Program-made: the position numbers and the translations under genes
The notes under the pieces: model-generated
The model's input: only the letters and a program-made list of their open reading frames with translations
The model's database searches: none
What the model was told of the DNA's origin: nothing
Shown: one piece after another, positions 1 to 63,892 of the stretch
Numbering within the stretch: position 1 is the stretch's first letter
How the letters are laid out: every line of letters begins with the position of its first letter
NCBI GenBank assembly: GCA_012729785.1
Contig: JAAYCL010000044.1
Span: forward strand, 58,793-122,792
Origin: Chlamydiota bacterium
Lineage (GTDB): Bacteria; Auribacterota; Tritonobacteria; UBA1439
Direction of reading: 5' to 3'
DNA: 64,000 nucleotides

Positions 1-1641
1 ACCAACCACGCCGACGGGGCGTACGGCGGTCTCTTCACGGCGGCACTGGCGAGCGGCGCCTTCGCGGAACGCGATGTCGAAACGCTCGTCGAAACGGCGC
101 TCGCGAAACTGCCCCCCTCCTGCGACTACGCGGAGGCCGTGCGGGACGTCATCGCATGGCATCGGGAGGAACCCGGCGACTGGAAGAAGACGCGGGAGCG
201 GATCCGGAGTAAGTGGCAGGTGGAGAGGGGGCACAGGGACGAGTCGGCGGTGGTCAACGGCGCGGCCGTCGTGACGGCGCTGCTCTATGGCGGCGGTGAT
301 TTCGATACAACCGTCAGGATAGGGACAATGGCGGGGTGGGATACCGATTGCAACGCGGCGTCGGCGGGGGGGATCCTCGGGATCATCCTCGGTGCCAAAG
401 GGATCCCGCCACAATGGAACATCTTCCACGACCGCTACAAGAATATCTCGCTTCGAAACCTCCCGATGTGGATGACGATCACGGGGCTCGCCGAGTGGAC
501 CGCCGCGCTCGGGGAGAGGACGATTGCCGCGCACGGCGGGCGGCTCGACGGCGACCGCCTCGTGATCCCGCGGAGGAAGCCGGCCACCCCGTGTGCGGCG
601 GGGACGTCCGTGCCCGGCGGTCCGCGCCGGGATGAGGAGTGGAATCCCCTCCGCGTCGAGAAGCTCGCGCTCGACCTTCGGCTCTGGAATCCCGATCTGG
701 ATCTTTGGAACTGCATCGCCGACGGGACGACGGGTCTGAGCCGGGAGTTCAAGGGGAAACGGCACGTCTTCAGGACGGTCCCGGGCCCGACGCAGGGGCC
801 GTGCGTGCTGATCTTTCCGGACGTCGCCCCTCCAGATGGGCGAGAGGAGATTTTGCTGGAGATCTCCGCGTGCAGCGGCGACGCCCCCTGGGACCTCTCC
901 GTGGCGGCGGGGGAGAGGGAATTGGGGCGCGTCAGAGTGGGGAAGGAAGCCCCGGCGGGGTTTCGGGCGACCACGATTGTGCCGCGCCGCGGCGAGGATA
1001 TCATCCTGTACCCGGCGGAGGACGGCTCCACCTACCTCGACCAGAAGCTCACCCGCCTCGCCCAGCCGTCGCCGTCATTCAACCCGGCGGCGAAACCCGT
1101 CCCGCTCCGCATCCGCTCCGCGCAGAACAATGTGAACCTCTTCAGATATGGCGGGAAGTGCCCTCCGGGCAAGCCCGAGATACGCGCGTACTACATCCTC
1201 ACGGAGTGGACGGACAGCCCCTATCCCGTCGCCTGGCTCTCCCCCGGCGACCCACATCCGTACGGCTGCTACTGGCCGAAGGAACACGTCCCCGACCTCC
1301 CCCTCCAGGAGCCCAAGCAGATCAAGTTGAGGATACAGGCCGAAGAGGAACTTCCCGCCATACCCGAGGGGGGAAAGTTCGTCCTCGTGCACGATGAGGG
1401 CAACGCGACGGTGATCTCGCTTCCGCGGGTATCCACGAAGCCGACGCCGTGGCACCGGCTGCGCTTCGATCTCACGCCGTACCTGGCGTTGCGGCCGCGG
1501 GTCGAGGTCCGGAGCACGCCGGCCGTCGGGGAAGGGAGGGGGGAGGCGTTCTGGGAGTACGTCAGGATTGTCAGGAGGCCCGTCTCCACCGTGGACGGCG
1601 GCGCAAACGGTCAAACCCCTTCCGACCGCCGGCAGAGGTAG
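1..1641 (+). CDS. ADP-ribosylglycohydrolase family protein (5' truncated)
   Basis: The open frame runs in from the left edge, so the N-terminus is missing. The first ~180 visible residues match the C-terminal half of the ADP-ribosylglycohydrolase (ARH/DraG) fold. The key signature is GWDTDCNAASAGG around position 335-380, whose Asp/Thr/Asp residues bind the di-metal centre in this family. Known members remove ADP-ribose from proteins or small molecules; the substrate here is unknown. A further ~350 residues, rich in beta-type sequence, follow the hydrolase domain and I do not recognise them; such appended regions often bind carbohydrate, but that is a guess. The last 31 bases overlap the convergent radical SAM gene. 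Family call is firm, specific function is not. Confidence 0.8.
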   Translation, partial: TNHADGAYGGLFTAALASGAFAERDVETLVETALAKLPPSCDYAEAVRDVIAWHREEPGDWKKTRERIRSKWQVERGHRDESAVVNGAAVVTALLYGGGDFDTTVRIGTMAGWDTDCNAASAGGILGIILGAKGIPPQWNIFHDRYKNISLRNLPMWMTITGLAEWTAALGERTIAAHGGRLDGDRLVIPRRKPATPCAAGTSVPGGPRRDEEWNPLRVEKLALDLRLWNPDLDLWNCIADGTTGLSREFKGKRHVFRTVPGPTQGPCVLIFPDVAPPDGREEILLEISACSGDAPWDLSVAAGERELGRVRVGKEAPAGFRATTIVPRRGEDIILYPAEDGSTYLDQKLTRLAQPSPSFNPAAKPVPLRIRSAQNNVNLFRYGGKCPPGKPEIRAYYILTEWTDSPYPVAWLSPGDPHPYGCYWPKEHVPDLPLQEPKQIKLRIQAEEELPAIPEGGKFVLVHDEGNATVISLPRVSTKPTPWHRLRFDLTPYLALRPRVEVRSTPAVGEGRGEAFWEYVRIVRRPVSTVDGGANGQTPSDRRQR

Positions 1642-2705
1642 CAGACGCCGGCCCTCTCCCCGATCTGCGCGAGCCGTGCCCGGGTGCAGATCGCACGCGC
1701 GCTCGTGTAGAAGTCGTTGTTCCAGATGGCGCCGAAGCGCTCCTTCCGAAGATCGCCGAAGACGGCCTGCGGAAAGTTCGGGTAGTAGCAGCAGGGCGAG
1801 ACGCTCCCGTCGCAGTTGATCGACGCCGATCGGTACAGCCAGGGACAGACCCGTTTGGCCCGCTCCGCGCGCAGGTCGACGCCCGCCTCCAGGTCATACT
1901 GGCGGTAGCGGGGGATCGTGGAGACCCACTTCTCGAGCAGGTCCCTCCTCGACGGATCGATGTTCCCGACGGGGGTGAAGGTCAGGTAATCCACCCCGAT
2001 CTCCCGCGCCGTTTTTCGGGCAAGGTCGATCTGGTGTTCGTTGTGCCGCATCACGATGAACTTCCACTCCACCAGCGGCGCGCGGCGGCGGAGCCGCCGC
2101 TTCTTCTCCACGATCCGCACGATGTTCTCCCTGACGAGCCCGAAGTCCCCGCCGACGCGAAACTCCGCGTACGCCTGCTGATCCGCCCCGTCGAGCGAGA
2201 CCTCCAGGTAGTCGAGGCCCGACTCGACGACCTCCTCCGCGAAGCCGTCCTTTGCGATGTTCAGGTTGGAGCTGATCATGGTGCCGAGGTTTCGTTCCCG
2301 CGCGTACCGTATCATCCGAAAGATGTCCGCGGCGAGGAACGGTTCCCCCTGCCCGTAGAGAAGGACGCAGAAGAGAAAGGGGGCGAGCTCGTCGATGAGC
2401 TGCGCGTACAGGTCGAACGGCATCGAGCCGAGCACCGCCTTCTCCGCGCCCTTCACCTGGCAGTAGCCGGTGACCTGGGGGCAGAGCGGGCAGCGCAGAT
2501 TGCAGCGGTTCGTCGGCTCCACCTTGATGAAGTACGGGAGACCGCGGAGCGTGCGCCTCCGCAGCAGCATCTCCGCCTCCACGAGGGCGATGTTGCGCAG
2601 CTTGGCGGGGGTCATGTGGCGCAGCGCGAGCCGGAGGAGGACCTTCAGCTTCCGCACGTCCTCCTGGACGTTCAACTGCACCGGATTCAATCGGTGTATC
2701 CGCAT
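1611..2705 (-). CDS. Radical SAM/SPASM domain protein
   Basis: A 364-residue radical SAM enzyme. The [4Fe-4S] cluster motif CxxxCxxC is C68, C72 and C75 (TNRCNLRCPLC). The C-terminal region has the Cys pattern of a SPASM auxiliary cluster domain (CPWLY, NCDGSVSPCCYYP, then CYLC at the end). There is no B12-binding domain. It is the last gene of a five-gene minus-strand operon and follows a B12-type radical SAM gene by 24 bases. SPASM proteins modify peptides, sugars or cofactors; no peptide precursor is visible nearby, so a glycan or lipid substrate is more likely here. The start is an ATG with only a weak ribosome site. Confidence 0.85.
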   Translation of the reverse strand: MRIHRLNPVQLNVQEDVRKLKVLLRLALRHMTPAKLRNIALVEAEMLLRRRTLRGLPYFIKVEPTNRCNLRCPLCPQVTGYCQVKGAEKAVLGSMPFDLYAQLIDELAPFLFCVLLYGQGEPFLAADIFRMIRYARERNLGTMISSNLNIAKDGFAEEVVESGLDYLEVSLDGADQQAYAEFRVGGDFGLVRENIVRIVEKKRRLRRRAPLVEWKFIVMRHNEHQIDLARKTAREIGVDYLTFTPVGNIDPSRRDLLEKWVSTIPRYRQYDLEAGVDLRAERAKRVCPWLYRSASINCDGSVSPCCYYPNFPQAVFGDLRKERFGAIWNNDFYTSARAICTRARLAQIGERAGVCYLCRRSEGV

Positions 2706-2729: not shown

Positions 2730-4145
2730 TTAGATCCTTCGCAGGTAGAGGAGGCCCTTCAGGAGGACGACGATGTCGTTGAGCGATCGGATCCGGCGGA
2801 TCGAGCGCCAGATGTAGCGGGGGCGGATGTAGAAGCGGCGGTACGCCCGACGGTACATTCTTCGCGCGTCCGCGGCCGTGAAGCCATCGGTCTCGTAGTG
2901 GGGCGTCGCGCCGAGAAAATCGAGCTTCGTGACGTCATCGCCGATGAGCGACCGGCCGTGTTTCTTCACCCACGTCCAGAGCGCCGTTCCCGGGAGCGGC
3001 GTGCTCATGGTGAACTGCGCGTAGGTCGGGTCGAGCCGTATGGCGAAGTCGATGGTTTTGCGCATCGTCTCGACCGTGTCGAACGGGTGGCCGATCATGA
3101 AGAAGCCGATCGTCTCCATCCCCGCCCTCTTCGCCGCGGCGAAGGCCCGTTCGACCTGCGCCGTGGTGATCTCCTTGCCGATTTTCCTGAGGACCTCGTC
3201 GTCCCCGGACTCGATGCCGAAGGCGACCTCGTAGCAGCCCGCCCGCTTCATCATTTTCAGCAGCTCGTCGTCGATGAGGTCCACGCGCGTCCCGTTCCCG
3301 AGACGCCAGGCGAAACGGAGGCCGCTCGCGGACACGCGGTCGCAGAATTCCGCGACCCGGTTCCGGTCCAGCGTGAAGGCGTCGTCCAGGATCGATATCT
3401 CCTCCACCCTGAAGCGCTCCACGAGCTCCCGCACCTCCCCCATGACGTTGTCCATGCTCCGGTACCGGAGGTTCCTGCCGAAGGGGCGGAAGCAGAACAT
3501 GCACTTGCCGGGACATCCCCTGCTCGTCACGAGCGTGGCAAAACGCTTCCTCCCGGTGTGGATCGTCTGATAGCGGTCGAGGGGGAGGAGGTGACGGGCC
3601 GGGAACGGGATCGAATCCAGGTCGCGGATGAGCGGCCGGTCGGGGGTGTGCACGACCTCCCCCTTGTCCCTGAAGGAGATGCCCGGGACATCGCGCCAGC
3701 CCGCCGTTCCCCGCCCCAGACGCGCCATCAGATCCAGGATGGTCTCCTCTCCCTCGCCGCGCACGCATATATCCGCCCCTCCGCGCTCGAGCGCCTCCTC
3801 GGGGGCGATCGTGGGGTGCGGGCCTCCGAAGATGAGGAGCGGCGGGCGGGGGAGGGCCTTCACGCCGTCGGCGAGTTCGCGGGCCGCCGCGAGCATGGAG
3901 GTCATCATTGTGGCGCCGACGGCGGCGGGCTGTTTCTCTCGGACGACGGCGAGGATATCCTTCAGGGACATCCCGAGCCCGTTGGCGTCGAGGAGCTCGA
4001 ACGGGATGCCGGATCGCTCGAGCACCGCGGCCACGTACGCCAGGCCCAGGGGCGCCTCGGCGCAGCCGGCGTGGTAGAACGGGATGTTAACGAGGAACAA
4101 CCCCGGCGTGCCGCCTGCCGCAGCCCCGTGTCCGTTTCGGGTCAT
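2730..4145 (-). CDS. B12-binding domain radical SAM protein
   Basis: A 471-residue class B radical SAM enzyme. Residues ~15-140 form a Rossmann-like cobalamin-binding domain with the GGPHPT loop near residue 108 and the RGEGEE motif near 129. The radical SAM core follows, with C211, C215 and C218 (CPGKCMFC). The tail has a FYIRPRY motif before a basic amphipathic helix, shared with several other rSAMs in this window. Known members methylate or rearrange unactivated carbon in lipids, bacteriochlorophyll and antibiotics. The frame is open further upstream, but homology begins at the ATG used here, which has a GAAGG ribosome site. A 119-base gap with a 13-base direct repeat separates it from the glycosyltransferase gene upstream. 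Confidence 0.88.
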   Translation of the reverse strand: MTRNGHGAAAGGTPGLFLVNIPFYHAGCAEAPLGLAYVAAVLERSGIPFELLDANGLGMSLKDILAVVREKQPAAVGATMMTSMLAAARELADGVKALPRPPLLIFGGPHPTIAPEEALERGGADICVRGEGEETILDLMARLGRGTAGWRDVPGISFRDKGEVVHTPDRPLIRDLDSIPFPARHLLPLDRYQTIHTGRKRFATLVTSRGCPGKCMFCFRPFGRNLRYRSMDNVMGEVRELVERFRVEEISILDDAFTLDRNRVAEFCDRVSASGLRFAWRLGNGTRVDLIDDELLKMMKRAGCYEVAFGIESGDDEVLRKIGKEITTAQVERAFAAAKRAGMETIGFFMIGHPFDTVETMRKTIDFAIRLDPTYAQFTMSTPLPGTALWTWVKKHGRSLIGDDVTKLDFLGATPHYETDGFTAADARRMYRRAYRRFYIRPRYIWRSIRRIRSLNDIVVLLKGLLYLRRI

Positions 4146-4264: not shown

Positions 4265-5290
4265 TCAATCGTTGCGGCGTTTCCCCGCGAGGATCTTCGA
4301 GAACCCCTCGATTTCGCCGACCCCGTAGCCGAGGTGCGTGAGAAGGAGGGCGGCGAAGACGAGGGGGATGCGGGCGGGGCGACGCGCCCGGATGGAGGCG
4401 AGGCAGGCCGTAACGGCCATCGCGGGGAGGTAGACGAGGGGGAGAAGAAGCGGGCGCCAGAGGAGCCCCAGCGGCGAGAAGGCGAGGCCGAGGAGGAGGA
4501 GGAGGGGGGCGAGGTAGTGGAGGTTCAGCATCGCGGGCTCCCGGACGAGGAGCACCCCGCGCGCCCTGCCGTAGCGCCGCATGTTGCGCCACCAGGAGAG
4601 GGGGGTCGACCGGTACCGGTGATAGACGACCGGGAGGGGGGAATAGAGAAGTTTTCTTCCCGAGGTGAGGATGCGGTAGGAGAAATCGGCATCCTCCCCC
4701 TCGTTTTCTAGGCGGTCGTCGAAAAAGCCGATGCGATCGAAGAGACCCCGCTCGTAGATGACGTTCAACGAGGGGAGGTCGTCGACGAATCTCTCCCGAG
4801 GGTGGCACATCCCCGTCACCCGGCCGCCGCTCCCGACCCAGGTGTTGAGGGCGAGTTTCAGCGCTTCCACGAACGGGGGGCTCCCCTCGGGGATGAGGCT
4901 GGGGCCGCCGACCGCGGCGACACGCGCGTCCCTCTCCCGCGCCTCGCGGAATACCGCCGCGAGGGAGGAAAGCCACCGGGGAGCGGCGACGCAGTCGGCG
5001 TCGATGAAGGCGACGAATGGGGCGCGGGATTCCCGTACGCCGGTGTTGCGGGCGACGGCCGTCCCCTTTCTCGGTTCGACGACGACGCGGATGCACGGGT
5101 GGCGCAGGGCGCGGGCGCGGGCGATCTCCAGGGTGCCGTCGCTGGAATCCCCGTCCACCACGATCACCTCGAAGGAGCCCGAAGAAAACTCCTGTCCCGC
5201 GACGGAATCCAGGCACGCGGCGATGTTGTTTCGCTCGTTATAGCAGACGACGACCACGGAGAGATCGAGCGCGCGGGGCGTGTCGGTCAC
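4265..5290 (-). CDS. Glycosyltransferase family 2, membrane-anchored
   Basis: A 341-residue GT2 (GT-A fold) enzyme. The N-terminal strand and CYNERNN nucleotide-binding motif lie near residues 11-23, the VVDGDSSDG motif near 45, and the metal-binding FIDADC motif near 95. The C-terminal ~80 residues are hydrophobic and should give two or three membrane segments. The start is a GTG with a strong GGGAGGG ribosome site six bases upstream. The gene follows a B12-rSAM gene by about 20 bases in the same operon. It probably adds a sugar to a lipid-linked acceptor at the inner face of the membrane; donor and acceptor cannot be read from the sequence. Confidence 0.88.
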   Translation of the reverse strand: MTDTPRALDLSVVVVCYNERNNIAACLDSVAGQEFSSGSFEVIVVDGDSSDGTLEIARARALRHPCIRVVVEPRKGTAVARNTGVRESRAPFVAFIDADCVAAPRWLSSLAAVFREARERDARVAAVGGPSLIPEGSPPFVEALKLALNTWVGSGGRVTGMCHPRERFVDDLPSLNVIYERGLFDRIGFFDDRLENEGEDADFSYRILTSGRKLLYSPLPVVYHRYRSTPLSWWRNMRRYGRARGVLLVREPAMLNLHYLAPLLLLLGLAFSPLGLLWRPLLLPLVYLPAMAVTACLASIRARRPARIPLVFAALLLTHLGYGVGEIEGFSKILAGKRRND

Positions 5291-5309: not shown

Positions 5310-6767
5310 TCAGCGGCGCCGCCTCAGGCCGCGCGCGAGGTACGCGGCGTAGCGCCGGGCCGACCGCAGATTCCTTCTCCCCTCCGACGGCCTGAGGGCC
5401 GACTGGACGAGCTTACGGGCGAGGTAACGAGGGTTGAAGTGGTAGGAGCGGTACGCCCGTTCGCAGAACCGCTCCATCTCCTCCATCGAGATGCCGGGGA
5501 GCGACAGCGGACTCGCGTGGGAGAGGGAGGGGCTCATCCACTTCGAATAGTCCTCGGTCAGCAGGTAGCCGTGCGCCTTCGCCCACGCGTACGCCTCGGT
5601 CCCCGGGTAGACGATGAGCGGGTAGAACTGGAAGCTGTCGCAGGCCAGCTCCTTCGCGAAGCGGAGGCTCTCCGCCATCGTCTCCCGCGTCTCGCCGGGG
5701 TTTCCGACCATGATGCAGCCGTGGACGAGGATACCCGCCCGGCGCGCGTTTTTCACGAAGGCGCGGGACTGTTCCAGACGCAGCCCCTTCTTCATCCTGT
5801 TCAGGAGCTCCTGGCTCCCGCTCTCGAACCCGACGGTCACCAGCCGGCACCCGGCCTCCTTCATGGCGGCGAGCGTCTCGTACTCCAGGTCCGCGCGCAC
5901 GTTCGTGTACCATTTCAGCCGGTTCCTCTGCCCGACGAGGAGCTCGCAGATCCTCCGCGCCCTCCCGCGATCCACGGTGAACGTGTCGTCCTCGAGGCCG
6001 ATCTCCCGGGCCTCGGGGAGATTCGCCGCGATGAAGGCGAACTCGGCGGCCACGTTCTCCGGGCTTCGAGGACGGAACCTCCGCCCGTGAAACGTCTGGG
6101 GGTAGACGCAGAAGAAGCAGCGCTGCGGGCAGCCGCGCGCGCTTATGATCTGGACGACCGGGTAGTCCGCGGCGGCGAAGTAGTAGTCGCGGATATCGAG
6201 GTGTTTCCGGTAGGTTTCGCTGACGAACGGGAGCTCGTCGAGATCTTCGATGAGGGGGCGGGGGGCCGTGCGGAGGCAGATGCCGCCCCGCCGTATGCAG
6301 AGGCCGGCCACCCCCGCCGGATCGCCGCCGGCCTTCAGACGGCGCGCGAGGTCGCGGAGCGTGTAGTCGTATTCCCCGAGCGCGACGGCGTCGACCCGGG
6401 GGGCGAGCGCGAGCGTCTCCTCGGGGAGGGCGGTGGGGTGCGTGCCCGTCAGGACGACGAACGCGCGGGGGAGGGTCTCCTTGAGGGACTCGGCCACCTC
6501 CGCGTCGTTGTAGATGCTGGGGGTGCTGGTGTCGCAGACGACGATGTCGGGGGAGAAGTCCGCGGCCCGCGAGAGAACCTCCCCCCGCGCGAAGCCCCGG
6601 GCGGGGGCGTCGAGGAGCAGGCAGTCGAAGCCGTCCTTTTCCAGCACACCGGTCGCCGCGGCGAGCCAGAACGGGTAGTAGAGCGTCCCACCCTTCGTCA
6701 CCGCGGGGCTTCGTTGCGACCTGGAGAACCGCGGGTGGAATGGGGGGTTCAGCACCAGCACCTTCAG
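5310..6767 (-). CDS. B12-binding domain radical SAM protein (CTG start)
   Basis: A 485-residue class B radical SAM protein. The cobalamin domain covers residues ~1-145, with GTHPT near 108. The cluster cysteines are C213, C217 and C220 (CPQRCFFC). The tail carries HFNPRYLARK, a variant of the tail motif found in its paralogues, and ends in a very basic stretch. The natural N-terminus (KVLVLNPPFHP) starts at CTG 6767-6765, which overlaps the TGA of the upstream gene as CTGA. GGAGG at 6780-6776 is eight bases upstream. No ATG fits; GTG at 6761 is the only other candidate and would remove two residues of the first beta strand. Function beyond the family is unknown. Confidence 0.86.
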   Translation of the reverse strand: MKVLVLNPPFHPRFSRSQRSPAVTKGGTLYYPFWLAAATGVLEKDGFDCLLLDAPARGFARGEVLSRAADFSPDIVVCDTSTPSIYNDAEVAESLKETLPRAFVVLTGTHPTALPEETLALAPRVDAVALGEYDYTLRDLARRLKAGGDPAGVAGLCIRRGGICLRTAPRPLIEDLDELPFVSETYRKHLDIRDYYFAAADYPVVQIISARGCPQRCFFCVYPQTFHGRRFRPRSPENVAAEFAFIAANLPEAREIGLEDDTFTVDRGRARRICELLVGQRNRLKWYTNVRADLEYETLAAMKEAGCRLVTVGFESGSQELLNRMKKGLRLEQSRAFVKNARRAGILVHGCIMVGNPGETRETMAESLRFAKELACDSFQFYPLIVYPGTEAYAWAKAHGYLLTEDYSKWMSPSLSHASPLSLPGISMEEMERFCERAYRSYHFNPRYLARKLVQSALRPSEGRRNLRSARRYAAYLARGLRRRR

Positions 6768-7939
6768 AGCTGGCCCCTCCGTTTCATGTCGAGCATGCTG
6801 AGGAAGAACGAGGAGAAGAAGGTCTGGATGCCGATGATCATCAGGGCCGCCGCAAGCGCGGCCCTGTTGAGCTCCACGACGGTGATGCTGAAACGGACCT
6901 TCACCGCGGTGTGGAAGACATACGCGTCGATGCCGAAGCCGACGAGGAATACGACGCTGCCGAGCAGCAGGCCTCTCTCCAGACTGAAGCGGCGGTAGAA
7001 GCGCGTGATGAACCGTGCGTCGTCCTCGAACTGCGCCTCGTAGGAGTAGGTCTTCGCGTACAGGCCGAGCAGGATGATCTGGAAACCCAGGATGGCCAGG
7101 ACGGTTCCAGCGAGCGAAAAGTGGGTCCCGTAGCCGTGGCCGCCGATCCAGACAAGGCCGCCGGTGAGCCCGAGGAGCGGGATGAAACCGAGGGCCATGA
7201 AGACCGCCCCGGGGACGAAGAACAGGTAGGTGGGGCTGTACATCAGCATGAAGCGCAGGTGGCGGTAGCCGTCGCTGAAGGTCCTGAGGTGGGGCCTCCC
7301 GCTGCGCCCGTCCCGGTGGAGGGTGATCGGTATCTCGGCGATCCGCATCTTGGCCTTGCACGCCTTCACGATCATCTCGGAGGCGAACTCCATACCGACG
7401 GTTTTGAGGCGGAGCCTGCGGTACGCCTCCTTGGTGAGCGAGCGCATGCCGCAGTGGGCGTCGGAGACGCGGCCGCCGAAGAAAAGCCGCAGCATCCAGG
7501 ACAGCACCGGATTACCGAGGTACCGGTGGAGCCAGGGCATCGCCCCCGGTTCGATGGAGCCCTTGAACCGGGAGCCCATGACCATGTCGAATCCCTGCTG
7601 CAACGGGGTGACGAAGCGCCCGACCTCCGACCAGTCGTAGCTGTCGTCGGAGTCGGCCATGACGATGTGCCTTCCGCGCGCCTCATCCAGCCCTCGGAGG
7701 TAGGCGCTTCCGTACCCCTTGACCGGCTCGCGGACCACGCGGGCTCCGCGCGCGGCGGCGATCTCCGCGGATCGGTCGGTGGAGCCGTTGTCGACGACGA
7801 TGACCTCCCAGGGCAGGTTCAGGCGCGTGAGGGCGCGCACCGCCTTCTCCACGCATGTCCCGATGGTCTCCTCCTCGTTCAGGCACGGCATGACCGCGGA
7901 GACCTCAATTTCGCCACGCCTTCCTGCGTCGCTGTTCAA
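6764..7939 (-). CDS. Glycosyltransferase family 2 with C-terminal membrane domain (DPM1/GtrB-like)
   Basis: A 391-residue protein. The GT2 domain shows MPCLNEEE near residue 17, VVDNGSTD near 50 and the MADSDDSYD metal site near 93. About 230 residues in, hydrophobic segments begin and continue to the end (roughly four helices). This layout is that of polyprenyl-phosphate glycosyltransferases that load a sugar on a lipid carrier at the membrane. The start is TTG at 7939-7937; an internal ATG lies inside the first strand and is too late. It is the first gene of the minus-strand operon, divergent from the SGNH hydrolase gene across about 270 bases. Confidence 0.87.
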   Translation of the reverse strand: MNSDAGRRGEIEVSAVMPCLNEEETIGTCVEKAVRALTRLNLPWEVIVVDNGSTDRSAEIAAARGARVVREPVKGYGSAYLRGLDEARGRHIVMADSDDSYDWSEVGRFVTPLQQGFDMVMGSRFKGSIEPGAMPWLHRYLGNPVLSWMLRLFFGGRVSDAHCGMRSLTKEAYRRLRLKTVGMEFASEMIVKACKAKMRIAEIPITLHRDGRSGRPHLRTFSDGYRHLRFMLMYSPTYLFFVPGAVFMALGFIPLLGLTGGLVWIGGHGYGTHFSLAGTVLAILGFQIILLGLYAKTYSYEAQFEDDARFITRFYRRFSLERGLLLGSVVFLVGFGIDAYVFHTAVKVRFSITVVELNRAALAAALMIIGIQTFFSSFFLSMLDMKRRGQL

Positions 7940-16102: not shown

Positions 16103-16127
16103 TCGCCGCGTGGAGGGCATCGTCGCC

Positions 16128-20730: not shown

Positions 20731-20744
20731 AGGCGGGGGGAACG

Positions 20745-24317: not shown

Positions 24318-24331
24318 CGCGGAAGGCGGAT

Positions 24332-38425: not shown

Positions 38426-38428
38426 GAG

Positions 38429-39650: not shown

Positions 39651-39657
39651 CGGTTCC

Positions 39658-40380: not shown

Positions 40381-40381
40381 G

Positions 40382-42566: not shown

Positions 42567-42649
42567 TGCGTGGTGCGGGGCGCCGAAGGTGCGCACGCGA
42601 AGATAGTAGCACATCTCGGCGAATACGGAAGCACTTCCTTTGGCCCGTT

Positions 42650-47779: not shown

Positions 47780-47814
47780 CCCGTAGTGTAGTACAGCACA
47801 CCCATCTGCGCTAG

Positions 47815-49980: not shown

Positions 49981-50020
49981 GACGATCCTCCCTCGGGGAG
50001 GCAAGGCGGGGCTGCAGCCC

Positions 50021-56124: not shown

Positions 56125-57567
56125 TCAAGGAGTGCGGCGGAGGGGCGTGCCTCGTGCACGGAGGGATTTGGAGAACGCGTAGGCGATTTTGATGTAATAC
56201 GCGAATTCCCTCATGCTGCGTATCCTGGCGATTCTGGACAGCACGTACCCCGGGGTATAGTAGAAATCGCGCATTATCTTGTTCTGCCAGGCGACAAGCT
56301 CTTCAGCCGAAAGGGCGTGCGTGCGCCAATTCGGGGTTTGACCGTAGATGACGTATTTGTTCCAGTCGGTTTCATTGACCAGCCCGCGTTCATTCATTAT
56401 CGTCCAAACTTCGGTGCCGGGATACGGCACGCAGAACAGGACGGCAAGTATGGTCGGCTTGATCCTCTTGATCAGATCGACCGTCGCGCGGATATCTTCA
56501 ACGGTCTCGTCGGGATGCACGCCTATGAGGAAATCTGCTTCGATATTCGTGATCCCGGCTTCGTGGGTTGCCTTCATCCCCTGTATGATCTGTTCAACCG
56601 TGATCCCTTTCTTGATCAGCTTTAATATCCTCGGGCTGCCCGATTCTATCCCGTACACAATCCCTTCACAGCCGCTTTTCTTCATATAGTGCAACATATC
56701 GGCATTGACGTTGTTGATGCGCGCGAGGCAGTTCCACGTCACGTGGTGTCTTTTGAAGATATCGCAGATCTTGTACACGCGGTCCGGGATGCTCGTGAAA
56801 TTGTCGTCTACGAGGGAGATATGCTCCGCCCCGTACTTCTTGACACATTCCTCTATTTCAGCTTCGACATACCCGATGCTATGAAATCTCAGGGCGTTGG
56901 TATGTAGGATCCTCGAGGCGCAAAAGATGCATTTCCCGGGACACCCGCGGGAAGTGAACATCTCGGAGATCCGCATGAAGCCCCTGGAGAACCCGCGCTG
57001 CGTATGTCCACGGTTATACAAATCCTGTTTCAGCAAGTCGCGCGCCGGGAAGGGTATCTGATCGATATCGGTGATGAGCGGCTCGAGATCGTTTTTTATG
57101 ATTTCTCCGTGTTTCCGGTACACGATCGATTTCAAATCCGATATATCCGCGCCCGCATCAATTACCCCGCAGAGTTCGGCGAACGGTCTCTCTCCCTCGC
57201 CGATGATCCCGATATCAAAGCAGTCGAACTCCCTCATCGTGCCTTCGGGGAGAGTGGAAACGTGGATGCCGCCGATGACGGTCCGGATTTCTGGGTACGC
57301 CCGTTTGATGATTGACGCAAGCGCCGCGCACTGCTTGATCGTGGGCGTGAATCCGCTGAATCCCGCGACCTCGATGCGGTTGTCTTTCAGGCGCGTCAGG
57401 AACTCGCGTTCGTTGAACGTCTCGGCGCTGTAATCCCAGATCTGGACAGTGCACTGCGGCTTCGCGGCCCTCAAGTAGGCGGCGACGTAGCACGCATTCA
57501 GTGGCTGCTGCACGCCCAGATAGTCAACCCTGTTCAATGGGGGGGGTATGATGATGGCGACATTCAT
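56125..57567 (-). CDS. B12-binding domain radical SAM protein
   Basis: A 480-residue class B radical SAM enzyme. The cobalamin domain has GGIHVS near 99 and IIGEGE near 121. The cluster cysteines are C209, C213 and C216 (CPGKCIFC), and the core shows VYGIESGS near 305. The tail has FYYTPGYVLSRI, the shared FYxRPxY type. Base composition is visibly less GC-rich than most of the window, with more A/T-ending codons, as for the genes at 59.8-62.4 kb; recent acquisition is possible. The start is ATG at the first strand (NVAIIIPPP). Confidence 0.88.
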   Translation of the reverse strand: MNVAIIIPPPLNRVDYLGVQQPLNACYVAAYLRAAKPQCTVQIWDYSAETFNEREFLTRLKDNRIEVAGFSGFTPTIKQCAALASIIKRAYPEIRTVIGGIHVSTLPEGTMREFDCFDIGIIGEGERPFAELCGVIDAGADISDLKSIVYRKHGEIIKNDLEPLITDIDQIPFPARDLLKQDLYNRGHTQRGFSRGFMRISEMFTSRGCPGKCIFCASRILHTNALRFHSIGYVEAEIEECVKKYGAEHISLVDDNFTSIPDRVYKICDIFKRHHVTWNCLARINNVNADMLHYMKKSGCEGIVYGIESGSPRILKLIKKGITVEQIIQGMKATHEAGITNIEADFLIGVHPDETVEDIRATVDLIKRIKPTILAVLFCVPYPGTEVWTIMNERGLVNETDWNKYVIYGQTPNWRTHALSAEELVAWQNKIMRDFYYTPGYVLSRIARIRSMREFAYYIKIAYAFSKSLRARGTPLRRTP

Positions 57568-57746: not shown

Positions 57747-59129
57747 ATGGAACAGGGAAAGTATACCTATTCGACCTTCGCCTGTATATTCGTTATTTTA
57801 ATCGCCCTGCTTAACTTCGGACGCGTCATCGTGCCGGACTATGGAGCCCATAGCTACCGGCCCGGCCTCGTCTTCCCCCCGGATAACATCATCGGCGCGG
57901 ATTTCCAGAGCTATAACTACATGGCATTGCGCGTCCGCTACGGCATGCCCCTCTATGAGGAATTGGATCGCAGCGATCCGCGCCAATCGGCGCTCGATGC
58001 GCACTACCGGGTGCTGCTCGGCCCGCTCCCCGATGCACTCAAGGACTGGATGGTCAGGGTACAGGCGCTCCCCTGGAACCACCCCCCCGTTTCCGCGCGC
58101 CTCTTCGTCCCGTTCACCTTCCTGCTCCATCCCTGGGCGTACAGGGTGTATCTCGGCCTCCTCATCGCCGCGCTTTTCCTGGCCCTGGCGCTTCTCAGCG
58201 GATATGCACGACACAGGGCGCACTATTGGGCGATCTGCTCCGCGCTGGTCGCGTTCTCGTATCCGTTGCGGTTCGAGCTTGAAAGGGGGGCCAGCGAGGC
58301 GCTTGTCCTTCTCCTGGTGACGTCTGCCTTCGTCGTATGGCGGGGCGGGCGGCACGCGGTGGCGGCGGGGGCGCTCATTGCCCTTGCGGCGCATGTGAAG
58401 ATGTATCCCCTTATCTTCCTCTACTACTTCATCCTGAAGAAGGAATGGCGTGCGTGTCTGTCGATCATCGTCACCGCGCTCATCCTCATTGTGGCGAGCG
58501 CCCTGGTTTCACGAGAGGGAACGGCCGCGGGGTTCGCCCAGTACTGGAAGCTATACCGCTTCGTGAAGGATGTCTACATCCCCGGGGACACGTGGGTGTT
58601 CGCGGGGAATCATTCCACGTACAGTTTCATGAGCTATCTGCTTCAGAAGCGCGCCCTCCCGACGGCGTTTCTGCTCCGCCTCTCGGGCATCGTCAATTGC
58701 GCGCTCCTCGCGTGCGTTTCGTTTTCGATCGTCGCACGGAAGGCGCGCGACACGCTCTCCTATCTCGCGGATTTCTGTCTTGTGATGATAGTGATGACCG
58801 TCACCCCCCCGGCCGCCAACGACTATTCGCTCGTGATGTTCTACTTTGTGTTCGCCTCGTGCATCGTCATGTTTGAGAACCTCGATTTTCAGTTTCTTCG
58901 GACGAGGGCGCTCTTTTTGGCTTTCAGCATGAGCGCCGCACTGATCTTTCTGTCCACCCTGCAGTTTCCGATCATCTTGGGCCCCTCCGGCGGCTATATG
59001 CCCAAGCTCTGGCTCTTGAGCAACAAATGGCCCCTGGTGATAATTCTCGGGGGTACCATCTGGCTTGTGCGGGGGGAACTCTTGCGCCGTCCCGGCGCTT
59101 CCGTGACCTCCGGACGGGTCCTGACATGA
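57747..59129 (+). CDS. Glycosyltransferase family 87-like (DUF2029) membrane protein
   Basis: A 460-residue integral membrane protein with about ten helices. GADFQSYNYMALRVRYGMPLY in the first loop carries the conserved Asp of GT87 (PimE-type) polyprenyl-phosphate-mannose-dependent transferases, followed by the NHPPVSARL motif. GNHSTYSFMSYL near 285 is another family feature. These enzymes add a hexose outside the membrane. GGGGGAAG precedes the ATG closely and a consensus promoter lies upstream. It is the first gene of the last plus-strand group. Confidence 0.82.
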   Translation: MEQGKYTYSTFACIFVILIALLNFGRVIVPDYGAHSYRPGLVFPPDNIIGADFQSYNYMALRVRYGMPLYEELDRSDPRQSALDAHYRVLLGPLPDALKDWMVRVQALPWNHPPVSARLFVPFTFLLHPWAYRVYLGLLIAALFLALALLSGYARHRAHYWAICSALVAFSYPLRFELERGASEALVLLLVTSAFVVWRGGRHAVAAGALIALAAHVKMYPLIFLYYFILKKEWRACLSIIVTALILIVASALVSREGTAAGFAQYWKLYRFVKDVYIPGDTWVFAGNHSTYSFMSYLLQKRALPTAFLLRLSGIVNCALLACVSFSIVARKARDTLSYLADFCLVMIVMTVTPPAANDYSLVMFYFVFASCIVMFENLDFQFLRTRALFLAFSMSAALIFLSTLQFPIILGPSGGYMPKLWLLSNKWPLVIILGGTIWLVRGELLRRPGASVTSGRVLT

Positions 59130-59241: not shown

Positions 59242-60054
59242 ATGACGAACATCACCGAGCGGCGAAAGAGCGAGGAGCTCTTCTTCGACCACTACGCGGG
59301 CGAGGTCGGTATCGAAGAGCTGGCGAGACTACCCCTCTTCAGCCGGTGGGCCTTCGAGAACCTGTACGCGGCGGAGGTGATGGGGGATCTCAAGGGGCGC
59401 CGCGTCCTCGATCTTGGCTGCGGCTGGGGAGAGGATGCGGTATGGTTCGCGGAGCAGGGGGCGTGCACGGTCGGGGTAGATGTATCCCCCCAGATGCTTT
59501 TTCTCGCGAGGGAACTTGCCTCCCGCAGAGGAGTGGGAGGGCAGGTATCGTTTGTAAGGGCTGCCGCTGAATCCCTCCCCTTTGGCAACGAGAGCTTTAG
59601 CGCGGTATTCGGCCGGGGGACGCTCCACCACGTCGATCTTTCAGGGACTCTCGGTGAGGTGTATCGCATATTGAAGCCCGGCGGGATTGCCGTATTTTCC
59701 GAGCCGCTGGCGGATAACCCGATCCTCAGCGTATACCGTAACTTAAACCGGTCCATACGCACCCCGATGGAAAAGCCTATTCGCTATCGCGATCTTGCGC
59801 GTATTAGCGCCGCCTTCGACTCGTTCGATCACATGGAGTTCAAGCTTGTTACCATGGTGGTGCTTGCGTGGTACTATATGAAATCGAAGTTATCGGGCTC
59901 ATTTCACACGGGATGGTTCCGTGACCTTGATTACGGTTTTGCGTGCAGGAGAAGCTACTCTTGCGTGCAGAAAATGGATAGCGTGATTCTTCGTCTTTTT
60001 CCGTGCCTTGGGCGCTGGTGCTGGCTGACCGTAATGGTCGGCCGGAAACGGTGA
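59242..60054 (+). CDS. Class I SAM-dependent methyltransferase
   Basis: A 270-residue methyltransferase. VLDLGCGWGEDAVWF near 51 is SAM-binding motif I, VGVDVSP near 75 motif II, and FGRGTLHHVD near 121 the post-motif region. KPGGIAVFSEPL near 143 is motif III. It belongs to the methyltransferase-11 group that acts on lipids, quinones and small molecules. No clear ribosome site; upstream in-frame codons give a tail without homology, so the ATG at the start of MTNITERRK is used. The 3' half is less GC-rich. Confidence 0.84.
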   Translation: MTNITERRKSEELFFDHYAGEVGIEELARLPLFSRWAFENLYAAEVMGDLKGRRVLDLGCGWGEDAVWFAEQGACTVGVDVSPQMLFLARELASRRGVGGQVSFVRAAAESLPFGNESFSAVFGRGTLHHVDLSGTLGEVYRILKPGGIAVFSEPLADNPILSVYRNLNRSIRTPMEKPIRYRDLARISAAFDSFDHMEFKLVTMVVLAWYYMKSKLSGSFHTGWFRDLDYGFACRRSYSCVQKMDSVILRLFPCLGRWCWLTVMVGRKR

Positions 60055-60122: not shown

Positions 60123-61523
60123 GTGAAGATACTTCTAGTTGTCCCCGTGCGAGAAGAGAAGATCGCGTACTATGTCACCCCTCCCCTCGGGCTCGGCTAT
60201 CTCGCCACATCCCTTCGTCGTGCGGGGCACGAGGTTGACATTCTGGACTGCATCAGGCTCCGGCTTGACTTTTCGGGTTTCAAGGAGGCGGTAAGATCTC
60301 GACAGCCGGACCTCGTGGGTTTCCAAACGTTCTCGTCGGATATGATATCTGTGCGCAGAAGCGCCGAGATCGTCAAGGGCCTGCGTCCGGACATAGTCAC
60401 GGTCGTGGGGGGCCCTCATCCCTCGGGCGATCCCGCGGGCACGATGGGCTTTCTCCCTCACGTTGATTATGCGTTTCATGGGGAAGGGGAGGTCGGCCTG
60501 CCGGTTTTCGTGAACTACCTCGAGGGTCGCGGGAAAGCGATCGGCCTGCCGGAGAACGCTATCCCCGGCCTGATCTGGCGGCGGGACTCCCGGGTGGAGC
60601 GCAACCCGCCCGCCTTTATTGAGGATTTGGATTCCCTCGGCATGCCGTCGTGGGACATTCTCCGACCGCAGGATTATCCCCCCGCGCCCCACAGCGTTAT
60701 CTACAAAAGCTATCCCATTGCCCCCGTCATGATCACAAGGGGATGCCCATTCCCATGTACATTCTGCGCCGCACACACCATCAATGGGAGGAAGATGCGC
60801 CGTCGCAGTGTCCCGCGCGTCCTTGATGAGATCGAACTCCTCCATACGGCCCACGGAGTCAACGAAATTCAGATCATCGATGACAACTTCACCATTGACA
60901 GGGAGTATGTGCATCGTTTTTGCAGCGGCCTCATCGAAAGGCGGCTGACGGTGGACTGGTGTTGCCCCAATGGCGTCAGGTTGGATACCTTGGATGAGGA
61001 GTTGCTGCGCGACATGAAAAGGGCGGGCGCGTATCGCATCGCCGTCGGCATCGAGTCCGGATCCCAGAGGATCCTGGACCATATGAAGAAGCAGCAGAAA
61101 AAGGAGATGGTGAGGGAAAAGGTCGCGCTCATACGCAAGGTCGGCCTGAGGCCCCATGGGTTCTTCATCCTCGGCTATCCCGAGGAAACAGTGAACGATA
61201 TCAGGCAAACGATAGCCTTTGCGTGTGAGCTGGATCTGGAAACAGCAGGATTCAGCCTTTTCTTGCCCTTGGTGGGAACCGAGACATATAATGTCCTTGC
61301 ATCGCAGGGCCGCATCATGTCCGACACGTGGGGAGACTTTATCACTTCGAGAGTGGTGTACGCCCCCGAGGGTATTACACCGGGGCAATTGAAACGGTTG
61401 CAGCGCACGGCATTTTTTCGGTTCTATTTGAGACCGAAATATCTCGTGAGATTTGCGAGGAGCATCAGCTCCGTACAGAATCTCAAGTACCTCGCCAAGA
61501 GGGCATTGTCATACCTGTTCTGA
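60123..61523 (+). CDS. B12-binding domain radical SAM protein
   Basis: A 466-residue class B radical SAM enzyme. GGPHPS near 96 and HGEGE near 119 mark the cobalamin domain, C208, C212 and C215 (CPFPCTFC) the cluster site, and IESGS near 307 the core. The tail is FYLRPKYLVRFAR, the shared type. GTG 60123 is preferred: GGGAG lies ten bases upstream and the next residues form the first strand; an in-frame TTG is six bases earlier. Base composition is lower in GC than the radical SAM genes at 28-36 kb. Confidence 0.88.
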   Translation: MKILLVVPVREEKIAYYVTPPLGLGYLATSLRRAGHEVDILDCIRLRLDFSGFKEAVRSRQPDLVGFQTFSSDMISVRRSAEIVKGLRPDIVTVVGGPHPSGDPAGTMGFLPHVDYAFHGEGEVGLPVFVNYLEGRGKAIGLPENAIPGLIWRRDSRVERNPPAFIEDLDSLGMPSWDILRPQDYPPAPHSVIYKSYPIAPVMITRGCPFPCTFCAAHTINGRKMRRRSVPRVLDEIELLHTAHGVNEIQIIDDNFTIDREYVHRFCSGLIERRLTVDWCCPNGVRLDTLDEELLRDMKRAGAYRIAVGIESGSQRILDHMKKQQKKEMVREKVALIRKVGLRPHGFFILGYPEETVNDIRQTIAFACELDLETAGFSLFLPLVGTETYNVLASQGRIMSDTWGDFITSRVVYAPEGITPGQLKRLQRTAFFRFYLRPKYLVRFARSISSVQNLKYLAKRALSYLF

Positions 61524-61582: not shown

Positions 61583-62380
61583 ATGACATGCGGGAACGAT
61601 AGACTCCAATCGATCAGCGCGTTCTTCCCCGCCTTCAACGAGGAAGAGAACATACGGCATGTGATCAATAGCGCTCTCTCGGTCCTCTCGGGAATCGCGG
61701 ATGAGTATGAAGTTGTCATCATACTGTACGAGGGCTCCACGGATAACACGGGGGATATCGTCCGCGAGATGATGCAGTGTGACCCGCACGTCAGGCTCAT
61801 CCTGCAACCGCGAGCGGAGCGAGGCTATGGGATAGCCATGAGGATGGGGTACGAGAACGCGCGGCATGACACTGTTTTCTATTCGGATGCCGACAGGCAG
61901 TTTGATCTCAGCGACTTATGCAAGGTGTTCCGGCTCATCCGTCACGTGGACCTGGTGGTGGGGTATCGCCGGTCACGGCAGGATCCGATCACGAGAATTT
62001 TTGTGGCGAAGATCTACAATCTTATGATGAAGATTGTGTTCGGATTGGAGCAACGCGACGTGGACTGCGCCTTCAAGCTCTGTCGCAAGAGTATTTTTGA
62101 AAAGGTCTCGCTGAAATGTCGGACGGGACTGTCGGACACCGAGCTATTGGTCAAGGCGCGCCTTGCGGGGTACGAGATTATCGAGGTCGGCGTCGATCAT
62201 TTTCCAAGAATCGCCGGGGGCACCTATTTTGAGATCGGCAAGGGGAAGTTTTTCAATATTCCGAAGCCCGGAGTGGTACTAGCTATTCTCAAGGAAATGG
62301 TTGGGCTGTGGAGGGAAGTTTCTCCTTCCCTTCGCCGCTTCAGGGAAGAACAAAAAAAACGCTTGATGCAACAGCCCTAG
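61583..62380 (+). CDS. Glycosyltransferase family 2 (DPM1-like)
   Basis: A 265-residue GT2 enzyme with FFPAFNEEENI near 14, the LYEGSTDNTGD motif near 49 and YSDADRQFD as the metal site near 100. The usual VVDDGS motif is replaced by ILYEGS, an uncommon variant. Lys- and Arg-rich C-terminus; no membrane segment beyond a hydrophobic patch near 145. It starts 60 bases after the radical SAM gene and probably uses the same pathway. Donor unknown. Confidence 0.85.
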   Translation: MTCGNDRLQSISAFFPAFNEEENIRHVINSALSVLSGIADEYEVVIILYEGSTDNTGDIVREMMQCDPHVRLILQPRAERGYGIAMRMGYENARHDTVFYSDADRQFDLSDLCKVFRLIRHVDLVVGYRRSRQDPITRIFVAKIYNLMMKIVFGLEQRDVDCAFKLCRKSIFEKVSLKCRTGLSDTELLVKARLAGYEIIEVGVDHFPRIAGGTYFEIGKGKFFNIPKPGVVLAILKEMVGLWREVSPSLRRFREEQKKRLMQQP

Positions 62381-62443: not shown

Positions 62444-63892
62444 GTGAAAGCGCTTGTTCTCATCCCCTCATCGGAGTACGCCGACAACGTCGTCAGGGAT
62501 GTCCTCTACGGCTGCTGGTGCAAGGGGAGGCGCATCGGCGGGGGCTCCGTGCCGCCGCTCAACGCCCTCACCCTCGCCACGATCCTCAAGAACGACGGCG
62601 TCGTGGTCGAGCTCCGCGACGCCATCGAGCAGCGGCTGTCGTTCGAGGAGCTCGCCCGCGGCATCGAGGGATTCGACGTCGCCCTCGTCCTCTCCTCCTC
62701 GATGACGATCGACGAGGACGCCGTTGCGGTCCGGAGGCTCAAGGAGAGGAACCCGGCGCTCACGGCGATATTCTACGGCTCCCACCCCTCCTTCATGCCC
62801 CGGCAGTGCCTCGAGAACCCCGCGATCGACATCATCGTGAGGATGGAGCCGGACCTGATCATCAGGGACCTCCTGCGCGCCCTTCGGAAAGGGGATGGGA
62901 GCTGGAAGGGGGTGAGGGGGATCGGCTACAGGGAAGGCAACGAAATCGTGCTGAACGAGGACTACCCGTTCATGGACGATATGGAGGAGATCCCGATCGC
63001 CGACCGGACGCTCCTCCCCCCCGGCGCGACCTACTTCAACCCGATCGTCAAGCGCCACCCGTATACCACGAGTTGCACCTCCCGCGGTTGCCCCGGACTG
63101 TGCACCTTCTGCACGGCGCCCGCCTTCGCGGGGAAGAAGATACGTTCCTGGAGCGTGGACAGGGTGATCGAGGAGCTGCGGTACCTCGTCGGCCTCGGCT
63201 ACCGGGAGGTGTACTACCGGGACGAGACGTTCACCTTCAGCCGGGCGAGGGTGCGGGAGATCTGCGGGCGGATCGTCCGGGAGGGACTGGATATCAGCTG
63301 GATATGCAACGTCCGCGTGGGGAGCGCGGACCTCGAGATCCTCCGGGCGATGAAGGAGGCCGGGTGCCACCTCATCAAGGTCGGGATGGAATCGGGGGCC
63401 CAGGAGGTCCTCGACCGCTCGAAGAAGCATATCAGGGTCGAGCAGACCCGCGAGCTCTTCGCCTGGGCCCACGCGGCCGGCCTCGACACCCACGCCCACC
63501 TGATGTTCGGCATGCCCGGGGAGACCGGAGAGACGCTCGATCGCACCATCGCCTTCATCAAGGAGATCGACCCCACCACCATCGACATCGGGATATGCTC
63601 CCCCTATCCCGGCTCGGAGCTCTTCAGGGAGCTGCTCCGCGAGCACCCGGAGCTCGGCGACGAGAACCGGTTGAGTTTGAAGGACCTCCACACGGCGGGG
63701 ACCTACAACGAGTGGTACACCTCGGTCTCCAGGGCCGGCCTCGAGCGCTACATCCGGAGGGCGTACCGCGAGTACTACCTGCGGCCGGGCTACCTGCTGC
63801 GGTGGCTGGGGAGGATGAAGGGTCCGGAAGACATCGCCCGCATCATCCGCGGCGGCGCCAATGTGATACGGTTCAGCCTGTTCGGGGACTGA
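62444..63892 (+). CDS. B12-binding domain radical SAM protein
   Basis: A 482-residue class B radical SAM enzyme. The cobalamin domain has YGSHPS near 111 instead of the usual GGxHxS loop and MEPD in place of GEGE near 134, so it is a divergent subtype. The cluster cysteines are C216, C220 and C223 (CPGLCTFC), and the core has YRDETF near 247 and GMESGA near 310. The tail is YYLRPGYLLRWL, the shared type. GTG start with GGAG seven bases upstream. It returns to the high-GC composition of the rest of the window. Confidence 0.87.
   Translation: MKALVLIPSSEYADNVVRDVLYGCWCKGRRIGGGSVPPLNALTLATILKNDGVVVELRDAIEQRLSFEELARGIEGFDVALVLSSSMTIDEDAVAVRRLKERNPALTAIFYGSHPSFMPRQCLENPAIDIIVRMEPDLIIRDLLRALRKGDGSWKGVRGIGYREGNEIVLNEDYPFMDDMEEIPIADRTLLPPGATYFNPIVKRHPYTTSCTSRGCPGLCTFCTAPAFAGKKIRSWSVDRVIEELRYLVGLGYREVYYRDETFTFSRARVREICGRIVREGLDISWICNVRVGSADLEILRAMKEAGCHLIKVGMESGAQEVLDRSKKHIRVEQTRELFAWAHAAGLDTHAHLMFGMPGETGETLDRTIAFIKEIDPTTIDIGICSPYPGSELFRELLREHPELGDENRLSLKDLHTAGTYNEWYTSVSRAGLERYIRRAYREYYLRPGYLLRWLGRMKGPEDIARIIRGGANVIRFSLFGD

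Follow-up and report, generated by a model that had tools for sequence, protein, structure and literature searches.

The 64-kb stretch of DNA analysed here (the window) lies within an island of genes that probably serves the biosynthesis and export of surface polysaccharide, whose sugars would be modified by cobalamin-type radical SAM enzymes. The product may be an O-antigen or a capsule, and possibly more than one is made. The host bacterium is a relative of Candidatus Auribacterota, with a genome of 2585 kb at 96.6% completeness. The whole island spans at least 109 kb, of which the window represents about 60%, and its upstream limit lies at about 14 kb on the contig (C44). Its genes encode an ABC exporter of the polysaccharide type and a Wzx-type flippase, along with many GT2, GT4 and GT-C proteins, sugar-nucleotide enzymes and methyltransferases, and Pfam matches place glycan-type genes throughout the window and beyond its edge. 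The interleaving with glycan genes described in the sequence-only reading is thus real, and the glycan context reaches beyond the window.

Radical SAM enzymes and their glycan context

Fifteen PF04055 domains exceed the cut-off in the window, each in a complete open reading frame with a CxxxCxxC site, and in eleven of these proteins PF02310 also exceeds its Pfam cut-off (42.0-83.0 bits against 32.1), as expected of the class-B type. The earlier counts of fifteen and eleven were therefore correct, as was the range 1611-63892, since the first gene occupies 1611-2681 and the last 62444-63892. All eleven class-B proteins have an N-terminal B12-binding Rossmann domain and a CxxxCxxC radical SAM domain. 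The GGxHxS/T loop, said to be present in most, is intact in nine of the eleven, with the variants GTHPT in g5 and GSHPS in g49; G-x-H and CxxxCxxC are retained in all, and all eleven may bind cobalamin. The other four had been called SPASM-type, which holds for g2 and g25 by Pfam match, while g12 and g23 have a radical SAM core with no SPASM match. The window, with 64 of 2585 kb (2.5% of the sequence), holds 15 of the 58 radical SAM domains of the genome, where 1.4 would be expected (binomial P ~1e-11, assuming independence of genes), and 11 of its 21 class-B copies, a figure obtained from 23 genomic B12-binding matches minus two with no adjoining radical SAM match. Scanning the window for Rfam families and tRNAs gave no match. 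The genes are as follows (strand in brackets, scores in bits).

g2, 1611..2681 (-): radical SAM with SPASM (PF04055 43.9, PF13186 46.5; G003 orthologue 76%)
g3, 2730..4100 (-): class-B radical SAM (PF02310 75.0, PF04055 90.9; G003 orthologue 84%)
g4, 4265..5290 (-): GT2 glycosyltransferase, partner of g5 (PF00535)
g5, 5310..6767 (-): class-B radical SAM, AprD4/HpnJ-like (PF02310 58, PF04055 85.7); start at 6701 by the gene caller, near 6767 by homologues
g6, 6764..7891 (-): GT2 with C-terminal membrane helices (PF00535; hydropathy)
g7, 8209..9453 (+): SGNH/AlgX-like, candidate O-acyltransferase (AlgX 24.7, below the cut-off of 26.5)
g8, 9477..11132 (+): multi-pass membrane protein of about 9 helices, weakly PMT_2-like (GT-C; PF13231 20.1, below cut-off)
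g9, 11099..12247 (+): DUF362 with 4Fe-4S ferredoxin, candidate electron donor (PF04015, PF00037)
g10, 12337..13803 (+): class-B radical SAM (PF02310 83.0, PF04055 83.7; reciprocal match 43% in G002)
g11, 13919..15040 (+): TIGR04076 domain in three stretches (71.9 against a cut-off of 33)
g12, 15041..16102 (+): radical SAM (PF04055 91.1; G003 orthologue 84%)
g13, 16110..18137 (+): multi-pass membrane protein of about 7 helices, GT-C-like, no Pfam match
g14, 18197..19735 (+): PurH-like paralogue, candidate formyltransferase (PF01808 106)
g15-g19, 19795..24317 (+): sugar-nucleotide block with three SDR epimerase/dehydratase-like proteins, an HddC-like nucleotidyltransferase and an HddA-like kinase (Pfam)
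g20, 24332..25063 (+): GT2 of DPM1-like size (PF00535)
g22, 25759..28032 (-): multi-pass membrane protein of about 7 helices with F5/8C domain (PF00754)
g23, 28534..29592 (+): radical SAM (PF04055 74.6)
g24, 29589..31022 (+): class-B radical SAM (PF04055 96.9, PF02310 71.3; 71% in G004)
g25, 31029..32120 (+): radical SAM with SPASM (PF04055 80.2, PF13186 25.7)
g26, 32152..33525 (+): class-B radical SAM (PF04055 90.1, PF02310 52.8)
g27, 33522..34967 (+): class-B radical SAM (PF02310 63.0, PF04055 63.2; 85% in G003)
g28, 34964..36388 (+): class-B radical SAM (PF02310 69.7, PF04055 68.8)
g29, 36385..37665 (+): FAD amine-oxidase fold (PF01593)
g30, 37700..38425 (+): GT2 of DPM1-like size (PF00535)
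g31, g32 and g33, 38946..41104 (-): GT2 (PF00535), polysaccharide deacetylase (PF01522) and methyltransferase (PF08241/PF13489)
g34, 41088..42614 (-): class-B radical SAM (PF04055 77.8, PF02310 57.9)
g35-g39, 42859..51679 (.): five multi-pass membrane proteins, putatively GT-C-like (7-12 hydrophobic segments each)
g41 and g42, 52511..55050 (+): UDP-galactopyranose-mutase-like FAD protein (PF01593, PF03275) and DegT aminotransferase (PF01041 370.7)
g44, 56125..57567 (-): class-B radical SAM (PF04055 79.8, PF02310 72.3)
g45, 57747..59129 (+): GT87 glycosyltransferase (PF09594 80.4)
g46, 59242..60054 (+): SAM-dependent methyltransferase (PF08241 83.1)
g47, 60123..61523 (+): class-B radical SAM (PF04055 86.8, PF02310 76.7)
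g48, 61583..62380 (+): GT2 (PF00535 77)
g49, 62444..63892 (+): class-B radical SAM (PF04055 85.5, PF02310 42.0; 83% in G003)

In Solidesulfovibrio a DUF362 homologue adjoins class-B radical SAM genes. The PurH-like g14 retains the KHxNxCG motif, and a separate canonical PurH is encoded on contig C20. For g35-g39 there was no Pfam or NCBIfam match, and the AlphaFold model of g36, the one modelled, was poor (pLDDT 42, from an alignment of three sequences), and for this reason we infer the GT-C label of membrane proteins lacking a family match only tentatively.

Upstream of the window, on the same contig, two further genes bear on the role of the island.

C44:43099-43959: ABC-2 permease (ABC2_membrane)
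C44:43964-46264: ABC ATPase with a long C-terminal extension

This pair (C44:43099-46264, 12.5-15.7 kb upstream of the window) has a GT4 gene close by, and the same upstream stretch contains PMT_2 proteins, GT4s and a Polysacc_synt (Wzx-type) flippase. An ABC-2 permease and an ABC ATPase thus occur together with glycosyltransferases, as in surface polysaccharide loci with an ABC exporter, and the surface-glycan theme proposed from the window is strengthened. The arrangement is like that of Wzm/Wzt O-antigen or capsule loci, where an ABC-2 permease and a long-extension ATPase stand beside GT4 genes; however, the number of radical SAM and GT-C-type genes in the present island is unusually high. 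Within islands, class-B genes lie beside GT2 or membrane genes no more often than under shuffled gene order (P 0.4-0.8), and because adjacency does not exceed shuffling, a pairing of one radical SAM enzyme with one GT2 or GT-C gene was rejected.

Kinship of the class-B proteins and conservation of the island

Pairwise identity among the eleven proteins is only 22-34%, and in the tree they occupy eleven separate clades, no two being sisters. Eight of them have their own orthologue in another genus, at 68-85% identity, while no close orthologue of g10, g44 or g47 was found in G003. Recent local tandem duplication was rejected because the tree has no sister pairs and eight proteins have their own orthologue in another genus. 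Judging from their sequences, the eleven are old, separately kept lineages, and the term "paralogues" used for them earlier stands in the superfamily sense only. From genus to genus the orthologues are well preserved, yet the copies in the window are so little alike; each lineage has therefore probably been retained to serve its own reaction or substrate. No radical SAM protein of the window reached an NCBIfam family cut-off, and the eleven fell short of those for BchE, HpnR, ladderane, PhpK, TsrM, KedN5, AprD4 and the other NCBIfam class-B subfamilies. The sequence-only reading had held that assignment of each enzyme to a distinct housekeeping family would speak against it; the clades are indeed distinct, yet no housekeeping family was matched at its cut-off.

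Nearly the whole neighbourhood is syntenic in a sister genus, and synteny with G001 and G003 is near complete. Loss of the neighbourhood in relatives, also named as contrary evidence, is not what we observed, as it is kept in a second genus. Similar islands occur in other genera of the same family, with 13 full-length class-B proteins in G004 and 18 in G003 (up to 18 in 113 kb). In G004 a homologue of g23 (65%) adjoins homologues of g24 and g25, and a block of ABC ATPase, SPASM radical SAM and GT4 recurs near three class-B genes on contig C86 of G006, from another family of the same class. Dense class-B clusters are found also in Omnitrophota, Patescibacteria, Chloroflexota and others. In the open-access literature we found no report of class-B radical SAM islands in O-antigen, polysaccharide or Auribacterota contexts.

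It is a serious possibility, although we would not put it at even chances, that the island is a mosaic of several glycan loci, for different glycans or for variants swapped between lineages. Every radical SAM enzyme would then have a sugar of its own to tailor, and no single heavily tailored molecule would exist. Within the family the theme is constant but the genes present vary from genus to genus, three class-B proteins (g10, g44, g47) have no close counterpart in G003, shortened and relic membrane-protein genes suggest turnover, and an ABC-type exporter occurs together with a Wzx-type flippase, although one glycan usually uses either the one or the other. However, gene order in most of the window matches that of G003, with identities of 60-87%, and its gene set has therefore been held together.

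Candidate activities and other possible products

The structure model of g5 (pLDDT 87) has as closest solved fold AprD4 (PDB 6fd2; Z 35.8, next entry 28.3; 425 aligned residues, 27% identity), and AprD4 is also the best PDB sequence match of both g5 and g47. AprD4 is a radical SAM 1,2-diol dehydratase of apramycin biosynthesis that acts on a sugar-bearing substrate, the sugar part of the antibiotic. The settings differ, an antibiotic cluster for AprD4 and glycan synthesis for g5, and AprD4 lacks the GxHP loop in its aligned B12-like domain, whereas G-x-H is present in all g5-family members examined. The model places g5 nearest to this sugar dehydratase; 1,2-diol dehydration of a sugar would be a candidate activity. 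Loci of the g5 clade, including those of homologues in other phyla, tend to contain a GT2 like g4: 14 of 29 do so, compared with 4 of 49 among the other loci (P=1.4e-4).

A link of g5 to heptose was also considered, as it is present in Chloroflexota and Magnetococcales, and it was rejected because it does not reach significance when all loci are taken together (5 of 29 loci of the g5 clade have HddA/HddC neighbours, as do 3 of 49 others; P=0.14). In the window, HddA and HddC are among the leading NCBIfam matches, below cut-off, of g19 (132.7 against 600) and the nucleotidyltransferase (115.6 against 300), and the best PDB match of g19 is a heptose kinase.

The g5 model also aligns along its full length with OxsB, TsrM and TokK, class 1 cobalamin-dependent radical SAM enzymes (PMC13331322), and the window proteins have the domain order of that class, a Rossmann B12-binding domain at the N terminus and the radical SAM domain after it. 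However, all eleven are far from the named subfamilies, and they are only predicted to use cobalamin. The same architecture is found in TIGR04295 (B12_rSAM_oligo), against which g3 scores 101.9 bits, far below the cut-off of 400; here, in contrast, eleven different lineages share one island. We take "oligo" in that name to refer to oligosaccharide loci.

Over nearly the full model, g5 matches HpnJ (TIGR03471) at 373.5 bits, below the cut-off of 577.6; HpnJ, a radical SAM enzyme of the hopanoid side chain, depends on cobalamin but does not act as a methylase, according to PMC13142503. For several class-B members HpnJ ranks first or high among the matches, which could suggest a glycolipid or lipid product whose chains are the substrate of the radical SAM enzymes, as in ladderane, hopanoid and tetraether pathways. 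The C-terminal tails of the class-B proteins are rich in Lys/Arg, their last 60 residues having a net charge of +4 to +13. Such tails would fit work at a membrane surface and agree with the polysaccharide reading favoured here as well as with a lipid product. A g5 homologue of Solidesulfovibrio accompanied by AMP-binding and lipid-A-type acyltransferase genes also agrees with a lipid product. We nevertheless regard it as unlikely: fatty-acid, polyketide and terpene genes were not found in the window, and all NCBIfam lipid models score far below cut-off. A hopanoid pathway was rejected, since no PF13249 match, and hence no squalene-hopene cyclase, was found in the 96.6% complete genome.

RiPP loci often contain B12-type and SPASM-type radical SAM enzymes; both types are present here, and RiPP models are among the sub-threshold matches. 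A locus for peptide maturation is however very improbable and was rejected, as neither precursor nor recognition domain was found in the window: Pfam showed no PqqD/RRE domain there, nor a peptidase or a transporter of RiPP type, and among the short ORFs between genes no conserved, independent precursor was recognised. Those conserved stretches of the gaps that were traced abut genes for membrane proteins or the beginning of an adjacent gene. We give even less credit to P-methylation of phosphonate glycans, although NF038361, the model for the Sden_1168 P-methyltransferase, is the one that g10 and g47 match best (254 and 192 bits). Both scores are far below the cut-off of 575, and this proposal was rejected because no PEP mutase was found in the genome.

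Proposed pathway and its meaning

For the favoured reading, a surface polysaccharide with radical-modified sugars, we propose the following working. Sugar donors would be made by g15-g19, g41 and g42, possibly with a heptose-type kinase and nucleotidyltransferase among them. Cytoplasmic GT2 and GT4 enzymes would build the chain on a lipid carrier, while DPM1-like GT2s may load polyprenyl phosphate with single sugars. The eleven class-B and four other radical SAM enzymes could then modify carbons of sugar or carrier that ordinary enzymes do not reach, by C-methylation, deoxygenation or rearrangement of ring or skeleton, with the ferredoxin-like g9 as possible electron source. Methyltransferases and the acyl- and formyl-transfer candidates would add conventional groups. 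Finally, the Wzm/Wzt-like ABC exporter and the Wzx-type flippase would move the material out, and outside the cell GT-C-type membrane enzymes may add lipid-linked sugars.

Few cobalamin-type radical SAM enzymes have a known substrate. More than 80,000 sequences of this type are predicted, most of them presumed to be methylases (PMC13142503). Islands of this kind gather as many as 18 lineages in a single biosynthetic context and point to a candidate substrate class, lipid-linked or nucleotide-linked sugars, which can be tested. The genome has four cobalamin riboswitches. No CobS was found in it, which means that cobalamin must be taken up from outside or obtained in some other way; the surface coat of this bacterium may thus depend on the cobalamin of its neighbours. 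Since dense class-B clusters extend to several other phyla, we advance, as a conjecture, that candidate-phylum bacteria make a whole undescribed class of radical-tailored glycans, with many carbons altered by dedicated cobalamin radical enzymes whose chemistries lie outside every named subfamily. If true, this would give access to a new range of chemistry, that of C-modified surface sugars made by uncultured bacteria.

Radical SAM genes and their glycan surroundings

The source genome (2.59 Mb, 45 contigs, 96.6% complete) contains 58 radical SAM domains above cut-off, as found by a profile search of its contigs, and 15 of these fall in the window (C44:58793-122792; C44 is contig JAAYCL010000044.1), whose right edge is the contig end. 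An even spread would put 1.4 there (binomial P ~1e-11, a sign of strong clustering only, genes of the same island not being independent). Gene calling on the window gave 49 genes (g1-g49, in order), 15 of them with CxxxCxxC; Pfam assigned a radical SAM domain to all 15 and a B12-binding domain to 11, always above cut-off, and the counts of the sequence-only reading were therefore borne out. The 11 are here called class-B (g3, g5, g10, g24, g26, g27, g28, g34, g44, g47, g49). The remaining four had been described as SPASM-type, which Pfam bears out for g2 and g25; g12 and g23 are radical SAM proteins with no SPASM domain in Pfam.

Glycan-related genes of the window, from Pfam
g4, g6, g20, g30, g31, g43, g48: GT2 enzymes
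g15-g19: SDR epimerases, sugar nucleotidyltransferase, GHMP kinase
g32: polysaccharide deacetylase
g33, g46: methyltransferases
g40: GNAT
g41: galactopyranose-mutase-like FAD protein
g42: DegT aminotransferase
g45: GT87

Nine window proteins of 460-757 residues each show 7-12 hydrophobic segments; except for g45, their GT-C matches are weak or none, and the structure model of a GT-C candidate was of poor quality. Upstream of the window C44 keeps the same theme, with an ABC-2 permease, an ABC ATPase with a C-terminal extension, a SPASM radical SAM protein, a GT4, PMT_2 proteins, a Polysacc_synt flippase and two further class-B genes (C44:14015 and C44:40227), so that the island covers at least C44:14-122.8 kb. 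Inside islands, class-B genes showed no preferential adjacency to GT2 or membrane genes.

Some further genes deserve mention:
18197-19735 (g14): divergent PurH-like protein beside radical SAM g12
11099-12247 (g9): DUF362-ferredoxin
13919-15040 (g11): three TIGR04076 stretches
25205-25651 (g21) and 38426-38945: fragments akin to multi-pass membrane proteins g36 and g35

Canonical PurH is encoded elsewhere, on contig C20, and g14, which retains KHxNxCG, could be an amino-sugar formyltransferase. Both g9 and g11 flank radical SAM genes and possibly form an electron-supply module; DUF362 also adjoins class-B genes in Solidesulfovibrio. The fragments are apparently truncated or relic genes, which suggests turnover within the island.

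Diversity and conservation of the class-B proteins

We built a tree of 109 class-B proteins (a quick search with SH-aLRT only, containing several long branches). The 11 window proteins, seen beforehand as paralogues of one locus, resolve into separate lineages, none of them over a curated NCBIfam family cut-off. Since their pairwise identity is 22-34%, no two are sisters and nine (not g10 and g44) have orthologues of other genomes beside them in groups with strong support, the set is old and diverse and does not stem from a local burst of copying.

The gene neighbourhood, proposed earlier as a check, is conserved: most window genes have reciprocal best matches, in largely collinear order, in two relatives of the same family, CALLYX (G001; same genus, fragmented) and JAQUPF (G003, STD1_218; another genus). 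Close G003 orthologues (68-85%) exist for 8 of the 11 class-B proteins, g47 has a reciprocal match of 40% only, and g10 and g44 have none there. Full-length class-B genes number 18 in the island fetched from G003 (113 kb) and 13 in that of another relative, G004 (about 72 kb). Among 29 genomes, B12-binding matches per genome were 10-30 in the six from the source's own family and in a seventh from its class, and 2-22 in other families of the phylum. In one genome of the phylum (G011, contig C19 near 392490) such a match lies within a giant single ORF with a reported length of 28,618 aa.

Cobalamin and the putative substrate of g5

The G-x-H loop is intact in all 11 window class-B proteins, unlike AprD4, the radical SAM 1,2-diol dehydratase of apramycin biosynthesis, which lacks it in the alignment; each of the 11 would be expected to use cobalamin. 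CobS was not found in the 96.6% complete genome, and cobalamin is therefore likely imported or salvaged. The genome has four cobalamin riboswitches and two more proteins with a B12-binding domain but no accompanying radical SAM match. Riboswitches at three loci on contigs C13 and C16 lie near genes whose products are apparently secreted and bear signal peptides, and their neighbours are not limited to obvious transporters, a matter of proximity only, irrespective of relative orientation.

The best-resolved member is g5, with homologues (42-60% identity) in Chloroflexota, Magnetococcales, Gastranaerophilales, Aegiribacteria/Fermentibacteria, Solidesulfovibrio and others. Its AlphaFold model (pLDDT 87) is closest to AprD4 (Z 35.8), well ahead of MgmA (28.3), OxsB (27.7) and TsrM (27.3). 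A g4-like GT2 is present in 14/29 g5-clade loci vs 4/49 other loci (P=1.4e-4). HddA/HddC-like genes (heptose-type kinase/nucleotidyltransferase) adjoin the g5 homologue in three Chloroflexota and two Magnetococcales loci, an association not significant over all loci (P=0.14), and they are accompanied by a GmhA-like gene in the one Chloroflexota locus checked (L067). In the same-family Candidatus Auribacterota MAG (G002, JAPLCW), the g5 homologue (L021:1366-3612, contig C215; 748 aa) has a C-terminal SAM-methyltransferase-like region fused on, which would tie radical to ordinary methyl-transfer chemistry. Taken together, the data on g5 point to a sugar or lipid-sugar as its substrate.

Wider distribution and significance of the island

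Three pathways were considered and rejected: hopanoid (SHC not found in the genome), phosphonate (PEP mutase not found in the genome) and RiPP (precursor not found among short ORFs in the window's gaps). Among loci fetched around g5-like genes, other dense class-B clusters were seen, with 8 genes in about 17 kb (L095), 6 in L099, 6 in an Omnitrophota locus (L103) and 5 in L128; these four, with 5-8 class-B genes in about 20 kb, belong to unrelated lineages. The phenomenon is therefore not confined to the family of the source genome. We found no description of such islands in the open-access papers searched, which does not prove that none exists. The window belongs to a real, conserved, radical-SAM-rich surface-glycan island, in which the radical chemistry would follow from family membership, while export and glycan assembly are well supported by gene content.
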